Below, one piece after another: positions 2,220 to 8,078 of a DNA stretch of 39,075 bases. The first letter of the stretch is position 1; each line of letters starts with the position of its first letter. Under the pieces are notes generated by a model, which saw only the letters and a program-made list of their open reading frames with translations, was not told where the DNA came from and did no database searches. Position numbers and translations under genes: made by a program. This stretch comes from Pirellulales bacterium (GTDB lineage: Bacteria; Planctomycetota; Planctomycetia; Pirellulales; DATAWG01). The stretch is taken from the NCBI GenBank assembly GCA_035939775.1, contig DASZFO010000131.1, positions 1 through 39,075 of the forward strand, given 5' to 3'.

Positions 2220-2632
2220 CGGGACGTTTTCCCCATGTTGAGATGTCGCTCGTTGGGCGCGGATTATCCCCTACATGCCTGCGCGGGGCCTTGGGGAAGG
2301 GCAATTGGCGTGCCGTCGCCGGGCGCGTATTACATTACGATGCCGGGCTGGCAAATCGCCGCAAAAATGCGATCTCGTCGGGCGGATCCAGCCCGTTGTC
2401 GAGGCCGCGTTGCCAAAACGTTCGGCACGGCCTGCGCGAAAAAGTGGATCGTCTCACTGGGAAACGTCGCCGTTCAAACTTCCGGAATCCAATCCTCCGG
2501 AACCTTCGATGCAGCCGGAAATAAATTGCCCGGCTTGAACCGCCGTCATTTCCGCGACCGATGCTCGATAACGGCGCCGTCGGGGGATGGCGCGGATGGA
2601 CCGGCGAACTACGTCACTGGAGGGCGATTTTC
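2220..2632. other. Divergent intergenic region between glgP and the envelope protein
   Basis: These 413 bases separate two divergently transcribed genes and should hold both promoters. Short open frames are present on the plus strand, but their composition is Arg/Pro/Ser-rich as expected from random GC-rich DNA, and none has a convincing ribosome site. I see no RNA gene or strong terminator. The only clear signal is GGAGG at about 2620, nine bases before the ATG at 2633. Confidence 0.6.
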
Positions 2633-3691
2633 ATGTCGAGCAGTCGAGGCGAAGTCGGGTCTCGGTCTCTTGCCATTCGGTTAAGACTCCACCACGTGCG
2701 GGGGTCGGTTCATGCCGCCTTTCGCGCAGCATTCTGGGTCGCCTTAGCCGCGATGGTCGGTAACTATCAGGCGAGCGGTGTCGCCGCCTCTGTTCCGGAC
2801 CAGAATTCGCCCGCAGCAACCATCCAGGCGGCCCAGCCTCTCGATCAGGCGATCGAGGGCAACATGGACTGCCCCGACTGCGATTGTCGTCGCTGGTGCG
2901 ACAATCTTTCCTTCTTCTTGGGGCTGGAGGGTTCCAAACAGCCGCAAGATTTCGGCGTGAACGCCAATTTCGGCGGCCGTTTTTCCGTGAACTGGGGCGC
3001 GCCGATCAGCGAGGACCTGGGCATCGGGTTCCAGATCGGCACGGCCATCAATGCCACGAGCAACGCGGTGCAAGTGTTTCAACGCGTTGACGGCGAAACC
3101 GGGCGAACCCAAAGCTACACGACCATTGGCATTTTCCAGCGCACTCCGTGCGGATGGAAATGGGGAGCAGCCTACGATCTGCTCGAGGAAGAATACTACG
3201 ACGATTTCAACTTGGGTCAGTGGCGCGCCAAGGTTGGCTACGATTGGACTCCCTGCGACGAGATCGGAGGGCAAGCCAGCATCCACGATCACAGCGACTC
3301 GGGCTTCTTCGCCGGAGCGATACCAGTCACGCTGGGCCCAATTACACAGGGCAGCCTCTATTGGCGCCACACCTGGGAGACCCAGGTCGAGACGACCTTT
3401 TGGACCGGCATGGCCGAGGGGCACAGCCGTCCGAACCTGGCGCTCGGCGATCTTGCGCCTGATCGGAATGAATTCGTTTTCGGCGCCGACATTTTCGTCC
3501 CACTGAACGATCATCTCGTCTTGTTCGGCGAGGCCAATTTCATCATGCCGTCGGCCTCTGGCACCGTGGATTCGTACTTGGGGTTCGAGTACTACCCAGG
3601 CGGCGGCGCGAGCCACGCGCGGCAAAATACATTCGCGCCGATGTTCCCGGTGGCCAACAGCACGTCGTTCTCCGTCGATCTGATTCGTTGA
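2633..3691 (+). CDS. Exported outer-membrane beta-barrel-like protein (DUF6666-like)
   Basis: The frame is open from 2561, but the ATG at 2633 is preceded by GGAGGG at good spacing, so I start there (352 aa). Residues about 15-50 form a basic then hydrophobic segment (AAFWVALAAMVGNYQASGVAAS) that looks like a signal peptide. The rest has alternating aromatic and polar stretches and many Gly and Asp residues (FGGRFSVNWGAPISEDLG, WKWGAAYDLLEEEYYDDF, WRAKVGYDWTPCDEIGG, FVFGADIFVPLNDHLVLFGE). This pattern is typical of transmembrane beta strands and resembles planctomycete proteins annotated as DUF6666. A Cys-rich patch (MDCPDCDCRRWCDN) lies just after the signal region. Role unknown; a porin-like or structural envelope role is an inference. 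It stands alone, with 190 bases to the next gene. Confidence 0.8.
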   Translation: MSSSRGEVGSRSLAIRLRLHHVRGSVHAAFRAAFWVALAAMVGNYQASGVAASVPDQNSPAATIQAAQPLDQAIEGNMDCPDCDCRRWCDNLSFFLGLEGSKQPQDFGVNANFGGRFSVNWGAPISEDLGIGFQIGTAINATSNAVQVFQRVDGETGRTQSYTTIGIFQRTPCGWKWGAAYDLLEEEYYDDFNLGQWRAKVGYDWTPCDEIGGQASIHDHSDSGFFAGAIPVTLGPITQGSLYWRHTWETQVETTFWTGMAEGHSRPNLALGDLAPDRNEFVFGADIFVPLNDHLVLFGEANFIMPSASGTVDSYLGFEYYPGGGASHARQNTFAPMFPVANSTSFSVDLIR

Positions 3692-3881: not shown

Positions 3882-6800
3882 ATGTCGATCAATCAAAGCT
3901 CGTTCGCAGCCGATTCCGGGCCTCCGTCGTCGCAAACGTTCGCTCTGGGGCCGGCCGGTGGTTCGCCAACTCCAACCGATCTTGCCGCGGCAACTCGGAT
4001 TGAACCCCAAATCGGTGAACCGCTTCCAGTCGAAGACGGCGCTACGGCCGCGGCGCCGGAATTCAACGCAGGGCAAACCGATCCGGACTCGCCGTTGGAT
4101 CCGGCCACCCCGTTTCCAGTGCCCGCGGCGCGCCGCGGGCAATTGGTCCCGGGTCAGCGCCTGGGCAATTACCGCATCGTCGAGAAGCTCGGCGAAGGAG
4201 GCATGGGAGCTGTCTTTAAGGCCGAGAGCCTCGAAGATGGCCAGACGGTGGCGATCAAGGTCCTCAGCCCAGCGGTCATCGGCAATCCCCAAGCTGTGCG
4301 GCGGTTCCAAAAAGAGGCCCGGCTCTTAGCCGCCGTCAACAATCCGTATATTGCGAATCTGCTCGAAGTGAGCGAAGACCAGGGACGCCACTTTCTCGTG
4401 CTGGAATACGTTTCCGGCACGAGCCTCAAGGAAGTCCTCGGGCGGCGAGGCACGCTCGACGAACACGAGGCTCTGGCGATCATGGCCGACGTCGCACGAG
4501 CGCTTGTCGATCCGCACGAGCAGGGAATCGTACATCGCGACGTCAAACCCGAAAATATCTTGTTGACCGCCGTCGGCAGCGCGGACCTTCACGAGGCACG
4601 CCAAGGCACGCGCACGGATTGGCTCAACTCCCGGCCACAAATCAAACTGCTCGATTTCGGCATCGCTCGACAGATGGACCAGTCGGAATCGCTTTGCATC
4701 ACGCAGGCCGGCGCGATCCTGGGCACGCCTTTGTACATGGCGCCGGAGCAATGCAAGGGCAATGCCAAAATCACGCCGCAAACCGACGTGTACGCGATCG
4801 GCGTCACGCTATTCGAGTTGCTCTCGGGAAGGCCGCCGTTTCAGTCGGAAGATTCGCTTAAAATCGCGACGATGCATTGTCTCGAGCCGCCGCCGGCCCT
4901 AGCCAAGCTGAATCCGGCGCTGAGCGAGGGGGTCATTCGGATCGTGGAAACGGCGCTGGCCAAGCGCCCTGAAGCCCGGTTCGCCGACGCCGGACAGATG
5001 CTCCGCGATATCGAGCGTTTGGTCCGCGGCGAGGCGTCGAACATCGATCTCCATCCCCTCGTGCCGCCTCACGATCCGAGCCGATTGTTCCGGTCCGATT
5101 TTGTCTGGGACCTCCAAGCCTCCCCGGAGCAACTATGGCCATACGTTTCCAACACGGAACGGCTCAATCGGGCGGTCGGATTGCCCTCGGTGACATACCA
5201 AACTCAATTCGATGCCGACCGCGGTCCGCGCAAGTTTGGCGCGTTCAGTCTGGCCGGCATGAATATCGCTTGGGAAGAACATCCCTTCGAATGGGTCGAA
5301 GGACAGCGGATGGGAATCCTGCGCGAGTTCACCCGCGGACCGTTCAAATGGTTTTTGAGCATCGTTGAACTGTTGCCACGGCCGGAAGGGGGCACGCGGC
5401 TGAAGCACATCGTTCGTATCGAGCCCCGGAATTGGTTGGGACGCGTCGTCGCCGGCCTCGAGGTCAGTCTCAAAGGCCGGAAGCGACTCGACCGAGTCTA
5501 TCACCGCATGGATGCGGTGCTCACCGGCAAACTGGGCCATGCGCCGGCGCTCGACCCCTACGGCGAGCCGGAACGGCTTCAAGCGGCGCAGCGCCGGCGA
5601 CTCGACGAGCGGCTGGGAACGCTTGCCGCGCTCGGCGTCGAGCGTCCGTTGATCGAGCTGCTGGGCGACTATCTGGCCCACGCGCCCGCTCAAGACCTGG
5701 CCCGAATTCGCCCGCTCACATTGGCCAACCGCTTCGATCTCCCCGGTCAGAATCTGATCGACGCCTGTCTTGCGGCGACGACGACGGGTCTCTTGGAGCT
5801 GCATTGGGATATTCTCTGTCCGACGTGCCGCGTCTCGGCCGACGTGAAGGACACGCTGCGCGAGATTCAACGGCACGCCCGTTGCGAAGTGTGCAATCTC
5901 GATTTCGAGCTGGACTTCGCCAAATCGGTCGAAATGATCTTCCGCGCTCATCCGGAGGTCCGCAAGGCTGAACTGGGGACGTATTGCGCCGGAGGTCCGG
6001 AACACTCGCCCCATGTGTTGGCCCAACTGCGGCTCGATCCAGGAGAATGCATGGAGGCGGAACTCGCTCTGGCGGAAGGGGAATACCTGCTTCGCGGACC
6101 ACAGCTTCCGCAGTCGATCAAGATTCGGGTCCGCCCAAGCGGCGCTCCGAGTCATGAAAACATTCGGCTTAACGCCGAATTTGATCCGCGCACGGTCCTC
6201 AGCCTGCGCGCCGGCAAGCAGCGTCTGGCGATCAACAATGAATACGCTCGCCAACTTCTCGTCCGGATCGAGCGCTGCGTGCCGCGAACGGATGTCGTCA
6301 CGGCGGCCCATGCGTCGACACTCGCCCAATTCCGGGCGCTGTTTCCAGGCGAAATTCTCAAGGCCGGACAGTTGATGCAGTTGGAGACGATCACGCTGCT
6401 CGTGACGGCGGTCGAACGCCTCGACGCGCTGCACGCCGAACTTGGCGACGCGGAGGTCTATCTCCGTCTGCAAGACCACATTCAGACGCTCGAGGCCGCG
6501 GTTCGCCAGGCCGGCGGAACGGTGGTGAAGGTCCAATCGGATGGCGTTGTCGCCGCGTTTAGCGACGTAGCGGCGGCCCTGCACGCGGGGATGACGCTGC
6601 TGACGGGCGATGAATCCATGGCCGAGCCGGACCCCTTGCGAATCAAGGTTGGCATCCACCGTGGCCGAGCGCTCGTCACCACGCTCAATGATCGTTTGGA
6701 TTACTTCGGCGCGACGGCGCGGATTGCAGCTTCGTTGCCGCAATTTGCACGCGGCGGCGAACTGATTCTGACGGAGGCCGTGCATTCCGACCCTCTCGCG

Positions 6801-6953
6801 ACGGCTCTAATCGAACAAAGCGGCCTGGTGACCGACTTGGTTCAGCTCGAATTGCCAGGTTTGGCGCGGCAGTATGCAATACGATTGACCATACCGACGC
6901 GTCAAGGCGCGGAACCGGAATCGAGCACCGTCGAAAAAGCCGCGACAATCTGA
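3882..6953 (+). CDS. Ser/Thr protein kinase fused to SRPBCC, DUF5939 and degenerate class III cyclase domains
   Basis: This 1023-aa cytoplasmic multidomain signalling protein has no obvious membrane segment. After a Pro/Ala-rich 90-residue leader comes a Hanks-type kinase (about 95-385) with GEGGMGAVF at 104-112, VAIK with Lys126, Glu145, HRD at 218-220, DFG at 258-260 and APE at 287-289, so catalysis should be intact. Residues about 403-548 look like an SRPBCC domain (WDLQASPEQLWPYVSNTERL). Residues about 565-800 resemble DUF5939 and carry two CxxC pairs (646/649 and 668/671), probably a zinc ribbon. The end (about 830-1000) is a class III nucleotidyl cyclase fold. There the first metal Asp is Ala843, the catalytic Asn/Arg pair is replaced by Arg947 and Ser951, and only Asp887 remains, so it is probably a pseudo-cyclase. 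The start is supported by AGGGA six bases upstream. An FHA-EAL gene follows after 15 bases, so the two are likely cotranscribed. Confidence 0.92.
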   Translation: MSINQSSFAADSGPPSSQTFALGPAGGSPTPTDLAAATRIEPQIGEPLPVEDGATAAAPEFNAGQTDPDSPLDPATPFPVPAARRGQLVPGQRLGNYRIVEKLGEGGMGAVFKAESLEDGQTVAIKVLSPAVIGNPQAVRRFQKEARLLAAVNNPYIANLLEVSEDQGRHFLVLEYVSGTSLKEVLGRRGTLDEHEALAIMADVARALVDPHEQGIVHRDVKPENILLTAVGSADLHEARQGTRTDWLNSRPQIKLLDFGIARQMDQSESLCITQAGAILGTPLYMAPEQCKGNAKITPQTDVYAIGVTLFELLSGRPPFQSEDSLKIATMHCLEPPPALAKLNPALSEGVIRIVETALAKRPEARFADAGQMLRDIERLVRGEASNIDLHPLVPPHDPSRLFRSDFVWDLQASPEQLWPYVSNTERLNRAVGLPSVTYQTQFDADRGPRKFGAFSLAGMNIAWEEHPFEWVEGQRMGILREFTRGPFKWFLSIVELLPRPEGGTRLKHIVRIEPRNWLGRVVAGLEVSLKGRKRLDRVYHRMDAVLTGKLGHAPALDPYGEPERLQAAQRRRLDERLGTLAALGVERPLIELLGDYLAHAPAQDLARIRPLTLANRFDLPGQNLIDACLAATTTGLLELHWDILCPTCRVSADVKDTLREIQRHARCEVCNLDFELDFAKSVEMIFRAHPEVRKAELGTYCAGGPEHSPHVLAQLRLDPGECMEAELALAEGEYLLRGPQLPQSIKIRVRPSGAPSHENIRLNAEFDPRTVLSLRAGKQRLAINNEYARQLLVRIERCVPRTDVVTAAHASTLAQFRALFPGEILKAGQLMQLETITLLVTAVERLDALHAELGDAEVYLRLQDHIQTLEAAVRQAGGTVVKVQSDGVVAAFSDVAAALHAGMTLLTGDESMAEPDPLRIKVGIHRGRALVTTLNDRLDYFGATARIAASLPQFARGGELILTEAVHSDPLATALIEQSGLVTDLVQLELPGLARQYAIRLTIPTRQGAEPESSTVEKAATI

Positions 6954-6968
6954 AGGCAGGTAACGAGA

Positions 6969-8078
6969 ATGGAAATGAATCCGCCCGTCGAATCGATGTC
7001 GGTCCAATCGGATTGGTTCTTGTGCGAACGAAGCGAATACGATAACACCACGCGCTCGTTGAACATCAACGTCAATCCGTTTCGTATTGGCCGGCTCTCC
7101 AACCTGCCCTTATGCCTGTCCAGCACTTCGGTGTCCAAACTGCACGCCGAATTGATACTGGAGGATGGCCGGCTGACCGTGCGCGATCTGGGAAGCACGA
7201 ACGGAACATTCGTGAACGGCCGGCGTATCGCCGATCCGGCGCCGCTGGCTGACGGGGACCTCCTGCAACTGGCGAATGTGGTTTTTCGGATCGGTCACCG
7301 CCAACTCGTTCCTTGCCCGCGGACGGTCGAAGAGAGCGCCGCCGACTGGGCGCTGGCGCTGTGCCAATTCGATCAATTGATGAGCGATCGCGCGGTCGTG
7401 CCGCATTTTCAGCCGATTGTCGATCTAGCCGACTCGCGCACGATCGGCTTCGAGGCGCTGGGCCGCAGCTACATCAAGGGATTGGAATTGCCGAGCTTGA
7501 TGTTCGCCGCGGCAGAGAAACTCGACCAGGAATGCGCCCTGAGCGACCTATTGCGGGTCGAAGGGATCCAGATTGGAACGGGACTTCCCCAGCGGCCGAT
7601 TCTCTTCGTCAATACCCATCCGGCCGAAGTATTCAACGCGCGGCTCATCGAATCGATCCAGCAGCTTCGCGAGCGGTTCCCAACGCAGCCGCTGGCGATC
7701 GAAATCCACGAAGCTGCCGCGACGGACATCCAGGCGCTCGTTGAATTCCGTGAATGGCTGCGAGACTTGAAGATCCAACTGGCATTCGACGATTTTGGGG
7801 CCGGTCAGGCCAGGCTGTTGGAATTAACGGAGACTTCGCCGGACTACGTGAAATTCGATATCGAACTCATTCGTGGGATCGATCAGGCGACACCCCGTCG
7901 CCGACAGACGCTAGCGGCCCTGGTGCGAATGGTCGGCGACCTGGGCATCGCCACCCTGGCGGAAGGCATCGAGACGAGCGAGGAATCGACGACCTGCCGC
8001 GCGCTCGGCTTCCAGTTGGCTCAAGGCTTCTACTTCGGCCGCCCCGCTCCCCTGTCGAATTACACCGAGCGATCTTAG
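6969..8078 (+). CDS. FHA-EAL protein, predicted phosphothreonine-binding c-di-GMP phosphodiesterase
   Basis: This 369-aa cytoplasmic protein has an FHA domain at about 35-115, with FRIGRLSNLP, the SVSKLHAEL core and DLGSTNGTFVNG, which should bind phosphothreonine peptides. An EAL domain follows at about 140-365. The residues I can match to the catalytic set are all there: Glu162 in FEALGR, Asn215 in FVNTHP, Glu245 in IEIHE, Asp274-Asp275 in DDFGAG, Lys295 in VKFD, Glu332 in AEGIET and Gln351. It should therefore hydrolyse cyclic di-GMP. There is no GGDEF partner domain and no membrane segment. The gene starts 15 bases after the kinase gene ends. The simple reading is that the kinase, or a protein it modifies, recruits the FHA domain and so controls phosphodiesterase activity; that link is inference. 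No terminator was identified downstream. Confidence 0.93.
   Translation: MEMNPPVESMSVQSDWFLCERSEYDNTTRSLNINVNPFRIGRLSNLPLCLSSTSVSKLHAELILEDGRLTVRDLGSTNGTFVNGRRIADPAPLADGDLLQLANVVFRIGHRQLVPCPRTVEESAADWALALCQFDQLMSDRAVVPHFQPIVDLADSRTIGFEALGRSYIKGLELPSLMFAAAEKLDQECALSDLLRVEGIQIGTGLPQRPILFVNTHPAEVFNARLIESIQQLRERFPTQPLAIEIHEAAATDIQALVEFREWLRDLKIQLAFDDFGAGQARLLELTETSPDYVKFDIELIRGIDQATPRRRQTLAALVRMVGDLGIATLAEGIETSEESTTCRALGFQLAQGFYFGRPAPLSNYTERS

Follow-up and report, generated by a model that had tools for sequence, protein, structure and literature searches.

Two neighbouring genes in the DNA of a Pirellulales bacterium raise the question of whether a Hanks-type Ser/Thr kinase can act directly on the breakdown of cyclic di-GMP (c-di-GMP), a second messenger commonly associated with sessile or motile lifestyles. 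To our knowledge, few direct links between Ser/Thr kinases and c-di-GMP have been documented, DgcB being the best precedent. The stretch analyzed here, referred to as the window, comprises 39,075 nucleotides (contig DASZFO010000131.1 of assembly GCA_035939775.1). As an earlier note based on the letters alone had described, a kinase gene is followed after 15 bases by a gene encoding an FHA-EAL protein, both open reading frames lying on the same strand (Table 1). Chance adjacency is excluded, since both frames encode conserved proteins and the arrangement recurs in about 26 genomes. Beyond that note, the present analysis adds the DUF6666 neighbor, the linker threonine Thr119 and the genome-wide pattern of FHA-EAL proteins.

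Table 1. Features of the kinase/FHA-EAL locus, in positions of the window
Feature	Position	Strand	Length or residues	Evidence
DUF6666 protein	2561..3691	+	376 aa	ORF; PF20371 (Pfam), E 6e-30
KCYC (Hanks kinase - SRPBCC - DUF5939 - pseudocyclase fusion)	3882..6953	+	1023 aa	
Hanks Ser/Thr kinase domain of KCYC	4170..4985	+	97-368	Pkinase PF00069, E 9e-52
Thr274 codon, KCYC activation loop	4701..4703	+	274	Invariant in 63/63 homologues
SRPBCC/START-like domain of KCYC	5073..5561	+	398-560	Polyketide_cyc2, E 0.003; AF2 strand/helix order
DUF5939 of KCYC	5655..5969	+	592-696	PF19363, E 2e-16
Degenerate class III cyclase domain of KCYC	6381..6788	+	834-969	Guanylate_cyc, E 2.5e-5, weak
FHA-EAL protein	6969..8078	+	369 aa	
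FHA domain	7083..7271	+	39-101	PF00498, E 1e-17; G41 R42 S56 H59 N78 G79
Thr119 codon, FHA-EAL linker (candidate phosphosite)	7323..7325	+	119	Near-invariant Thr, disordered segment
EAL phosphodiesterase domain	7371..8045	+	135-359	PF00563, E 1e-38

The product of the first gene, designated KCYC, begins with a disordered N-terminus (residues 1-82). Its kinase domain contains the Gly loop, Lys, alphaC Glu, HRD, DFG and APE elements of Hanks-type kinases, and G104, G106, K126, E145, H218, R219, D220, K222, N225, D258, G260 and E289 are invariant in 63 KCYC homologues, in agreement with the earlier claim that the catalytic residues are intact. Like the activation-loop Thr274, the P+1 threonine Thr282 is invariant in these homologues. 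A fold search with the kinase domain returned PknB and PknA at the top, the first match being the PknB-GarA complex 6i2p. The SRPBCC region lies below the Pfam cut-off for Polyketide_cyc2 in the window protein and above it in homologue L206; the AF2 model of KCYC (mean pLDDT 85) displays the expected order of strands and helices in this region. Within DUF5939, a zinc-ribbon-like CPxC...CxxC motif (C646, C649, C668, C671) is invariant among the KCYC homologues. Most long homologues (L115, L116, L206-L282) carry an N-terminal pseudokinase in front of the active kinase (hhalign probability 99.9), a tandem resembling that of the JAK kinases; the window KCYC is devoid of a pseudokinase.

The cyclase domain of KCYC does not possess the class III signature (PF00211; two metal-binding Asp, Asn/Arg). 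The Me1 Asp position is occupied by Ala in the window protein, and both the Me1 Asp and the transition-state Asn/Arg are missing from 29 of the 29 kinase fusions examined, as the earlier term pseudocyclase implied. With the catalytic residues lost throughout the kinase-fused family, an active cyclase in KCYC can be ruled out. Four relatives lacking the kinase (L107-L110), of SRPBCC-DUF5939-cyclase architecture, retain FTDLTGS/T and VNIANR and hence an intact cyclase active site. In a likely history, fusion of an active SRPBCC-DUF5939-cyclase to a kinase was followed by loss of catalysis in the cyclase part, with proteins of the L107-L110 type as possible ancestors of the fusion. Assignment of KCYC to the TOMM kinase/cyclase fusions (TIGR03903), which likewise combine a kinase and a cyclase in one chain, was rejected: the score of 128.6 bits compares with a cut-off of 705.75, and only the kinase part matches.

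The second protein displays the GR, SxxH and NG motifs of FHA domains. Across 98 homologues S56, H59, N78 and G79 are invariant, and G41 and R42 are conserved in at least 90%. The EAL domain comprises ExLxR, the Asn, two Glu, DD, Lys, Glu and Gln of the catalytic set. In a 98-row alignment E162, L164, R166, N215, E245, E248, D274, D275, K295, E332 and Q352 are invariant and E335 is at least 90% conserved; the full catalytic set reported earlier is thus invariant or nearly so in 97-98 homologues. A fold search matched the domain to solved EAL enzymes, Bd1971 being among the best. The stretches NTHP (residues 215-218; window 7611-7622) and EIHE (245-248; 7701-7712) are family hallmarks, in which His217 and His247 are nearly or fully invariant and replace the usual residues; an additional metal or specificity role of these histidines is possible. 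A receptor-only EAL domain is disfavored by the conservation of the catalytic set across the FHA-EAL family. Fusion of FHA-EAL to KCYC in a single chain was not seen among the loci examined.

The linker between the two domains is hypervariable with the exception of Thr119, which is Thr in 90 of 98 homologues and Ser or Asp in none; the remaining eight lack Thr at this position. Thr is also present here in most of the more distantly related Planctomycetales copies. Entropy at Thr119 is 0.58 bits, compared with 2.5-3.7 bits at nearly all neighboring linker positions. In the structural model of FHA-EAL (mean pLDDT 91), residues 116-121 form the single disordered inner segment (pLDDT < 50). A function of Thr119 as helix N-cap is ruled out, because the subsequent helix begins at residue 124 and the N-cap signature (D/N/S/G) resides in column 123. 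Because FHA domains recognize phosphothreonine but not phosphoserine, a position that is Thr but never Ser follows the pattern expected for a phosphosite read by an FHA domain. The alignment therefore suggests Thr119 as a candidate for such a site. No strict kinase motif was found around Thr119 in the linker.

Conservation of the gene pair, which the earlier note had proposed as a check, was analyzed in two samples. In an order-level sample of 396 genomes, kinase-bearing KCYC homologues occur at 29 loci in 26 genomes, and 13 of these loci contain an FHA-EAL gene directly downstream on the same strand, separated from the kinase gene by about -142 to 271 bases, a figure that varies with the choice of start codons. 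A scan of named genomes yielded 256 confirmed relatives from Planctomycetota and Myxococcota; among the best 80 of these 256, which were examined, 16 have an FHA-EAL neighbor. Named paired loci include those of Botrimarina colliarenosi, Blastopirellula marina DSM 3645, Gimesia and Schlesneria. In a tree of 111 KCYC proteins, the four kinase-less relatives included, the 29 paired rows, which represent about 26 genomes once duplicates are removed, all fall into one clade with 100% support, spanning Pirellulales and Planctomycetales. The pair is thus kept within this clade (29 of 43 rows, 12 being unpaired and 2 undeterminable) and was not observed elsewhere: none of the other 68 rows was seen paired, 10 of them having too little downstream sequence to tell. 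Many homologues in Myxococcota, Gemmataceae and Isosphaeraceae have no adjoining FHA-EAL. Conservation in all KCYC homologues is consequently ruled out, and the simplest history suggested by the tree would be one gain followed by several losses.

Protein identity across the retained pairs is 35-50%, and their surroundings are shuffled. A DUF6666 gene, whose product in the window has a hydrophobic leader-like stretch near its N-terminus, adjoins KCYC at many of the homologous loci, chiefly those of the paired clade. Since little else is shared around the paired loci, it appears to be selection, and not recent descent, that has preserved the KCYC/FHA-EAL/DUF6666 set. Some KCYC loci without FHA-EAL also have a DUF6666 neighbor. 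In a divergent KCYC subclade (L100, L101, L103-L106), the gene of an ECF-like sigma factor adjoins instead of FHA-EAL.

FHA-EAL proteins are far more common in the order than KCYC. When 97 copies were classified by neighborhood, 13 were located next to KCYC, 61 next to a module termed KIN2, and 3 near another kinase; for 20, no kinase was present in the stretch examined. The KIN2-type module contains an AAA-type ATPase, a Hanks kinase with a fused tubulin-like domain (Tubulin_2, E 3.5e-37) or, in most cases, both. A Hanks-kinase module is therefore found near FHA-EAL in 77 of the 97 copies, where a rough chance expectation, if each genome has tens of kinase genes and a distance of about 2.5 kb is allowed, would be a few percent; because the FHA-EAL copies are related, this comparison amounts to no formal P value. 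Gene order and orientation in the KIN2 context vary between families while linkage is kept, and KCYC-linked and KIN2-linked FHA-EALs form largely separate clades. Most Pirellulales FHA-EAL copies are linked to such a kinase-tubulin-ATPase-EAL module (L124-L205, e.g. L133:2138-7968), the ATPase of which has a possible winged-helix N-terminus.

The host genome contains only three EAL domains, all in FHA-EAL proteins (the window on C131, C96 and C324); every EAL enzyme found in this host is thus FHA-fused. Both context types are represented, KCYC in the window and the kinase-tubulin type on C96, and the orphan copy on C324 is closest to the window protein (61% identical). EAL proteins outside the FHA-EAL family exist in other genomes of the order. 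The host further has 10 GGDEF and 10 HD_5/HD-GYP matches, and the HD-GYP enzymes could also degrade c-di-GMP. A PilZ match was not obtained in the host genome.

By analogy with known kinase/FHA systems, we propose, at about an even chance, that the two proteins are a dedicated pair in which the kinase phosphorylates FHA-EAL and capture of phosphorylated Thr119 by the FHA domain alters EAL activity. KCYC, a soluble kinase, would be regulated by something bound to its SRPBCC domain, its zinc-ribbon DUF5939 or its dead cyclase. Once active, it would autophosphorylate Thr274 in the activation loop, as inferred from PknB. In the PknB-GarA system, the FHA domain of GarA docks on the phosphorylated loop of the kinase; the FHA domain of the neighboring EAL protein may dock on phosphorylated Thr274 in the same manner. 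KCYC would then phosphorylate Thr119 in the disordered linker, and the phosphothreonine would be captured by the FHA domain of the same chain or of a dimer partner. This capture would move or re-pair the EAL domains, and c-di-GMP hydrolysis would change, up or down. A route from phosphorylation to c-di-GMP breakdown, as the earlier note had envisaged, remains the best reading in that the pair is conserved in one clade and a second type of Hanks kinase is linked to FHA-EAL; counting against it, many kinase homologues occur without FHA-EAL. For this reason KCYC would either have other duties or reach FHA-EAL in trans.

Several known systems share parts of this arrangement. DgcB of Bdellovibrio bacteriovorus is an FHA-GGDEF protein, in which the FHA domain binds a phosphorylated threonine in its own N-terminal tail, thereby activating the GGDEF domain (PMC6733907). 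Like FHA-EAL, DgcB combines FHA with a c-di-GMP enzyme and has a conserved Thr in a disordered region; this Thr is the demonstrated self-ligand in DgcB and a candidate self-ligand in FHA-EAL. However, DgcB makes c-di-GMP whereas FHA-EAL is predicted to break it down, its self-threonine is N-terminal of the FHA domain whereas Thr119 lies between FHA and EAL, and it is without an identified kinase whereas a kinase gene adjoins that of FHA-EAL. A kinase-tail-FHA-GGDEF fusion mentioned for Sorangium cellulosum (PMC6733907) likewise ties a kinase genetically to an FHA-gated c-di-GMP enzyme, but as a single chain with GGDEF rather than two genes with EAL. The actinobacterial PknB-GarA and PknG-OdhI systems resemble the window in a PknB-like kinase with an FHA substrate and an activation-loop Thr, and offer the intramolecular FHA switch as a model. 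GarA and OdhI, however, are FHA-only regulators of metabolic enzymes that lack an EAL domain and are phosphorylated at an N-terminal ETT motif; the FHA-EAL protein of the window has no ETT motif ahead of its FHA domain. The eight homologues without Thr at position 119 and the lack of a strict kinase motif around it count against the proposed switch. The position of Thr119 does so too, as the classic FHA self-peptides of GarA, OdhI and DgcB all precede the FHA domain while Thr119 follows it. Bd1971, also from Bdellovibrio, has a regulatory domain N-terminal of its EAL enzyme as well, but is gated by cAMP binding and not by phosphothreonine. Since its output is an EAL domain and its threonine is C-terminal of FHA, FHA-EAL belongs in neither the DgcB nor the GarA class, although a similar way of working is proposed.

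The role assigned to Thr119 separates this proposal from one in which the FHA domain simply docks on the kinase at its phosphorylated activation loop and thereby recruits or allosterically controls the EAL domain, Thr119 being kept for a fold or oligomer contact. The invariance of Thr274, the fold match to the PknB-GarA complex and the FHA-EAL members without Thr119 would all agree with docking alone. Yet Thr119 is located in a disordered segment and not at a helix N-cap, and the absence of Ser from this position is what an FHA ligand would require; we therefore consider docking alone unlikely.

The identity of the partner is a separate matter, as one of the many other Hanks kinases of the host (69 first-look candidates) could be the true one. 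FHA-EAL would then read another kinase or phosphoprotein, with KCYC merely co-expressed from an operon inherited from one ancestor. Such a reading is consistent with the derivation of the pair from a single gain and with FHA-EALs that adjoin other kinases or have none nearby. It accounts poorly for pairs that persist at their degree of divergence despite shuffled surroundings, and for the largely distinct clades of FHA-EALs linked to the two kinase types, which are expected of cognate partners; on balance it appears improbable. Information might also flow in reverse, the EAL domain mainly sensing c-di-GMP and gating the kinase via FHA. FHA proteins are able to inhibit or scaffold kinases, and EAL domains act as receptors in LapD and FimX. 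But receptor-type EAL domains lose catalytic residues, whereas the FHA-EAL family keeps essentially the whole set, and we regard reverse flow as very unlikely.

Limited literature searches returned no matches for DUF5939 or FHA-EAL, which is weak evidence of absence, and only unrelated papers on FHA/EAL c-di-GMP signaling in Planctomycetes. Extended from the window to the family, the proposal with Thr119 as switch would mean that EAL-type c-di-GMP breakdown in these planctomycetes is generally run by Ser/Thr kinases, each FHA-EAL having a cognate Hanks kinase (KCYC or kinase-tubulin) that phosphorylates the linker Thr for capture by its own FHA domain; we advance this tentatively, at somewhat less than an even chance. 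At this locus, a predicted c-di-GMP-degrading enzyme is encoded side by side with its probable kinase, and a single mutable residue, Thr119, makes the proposed switch testable. If general, such a switch would account for the control of c-di-GMP in planctomycetes, which have many Hanks kinases but few EAL enzymes.
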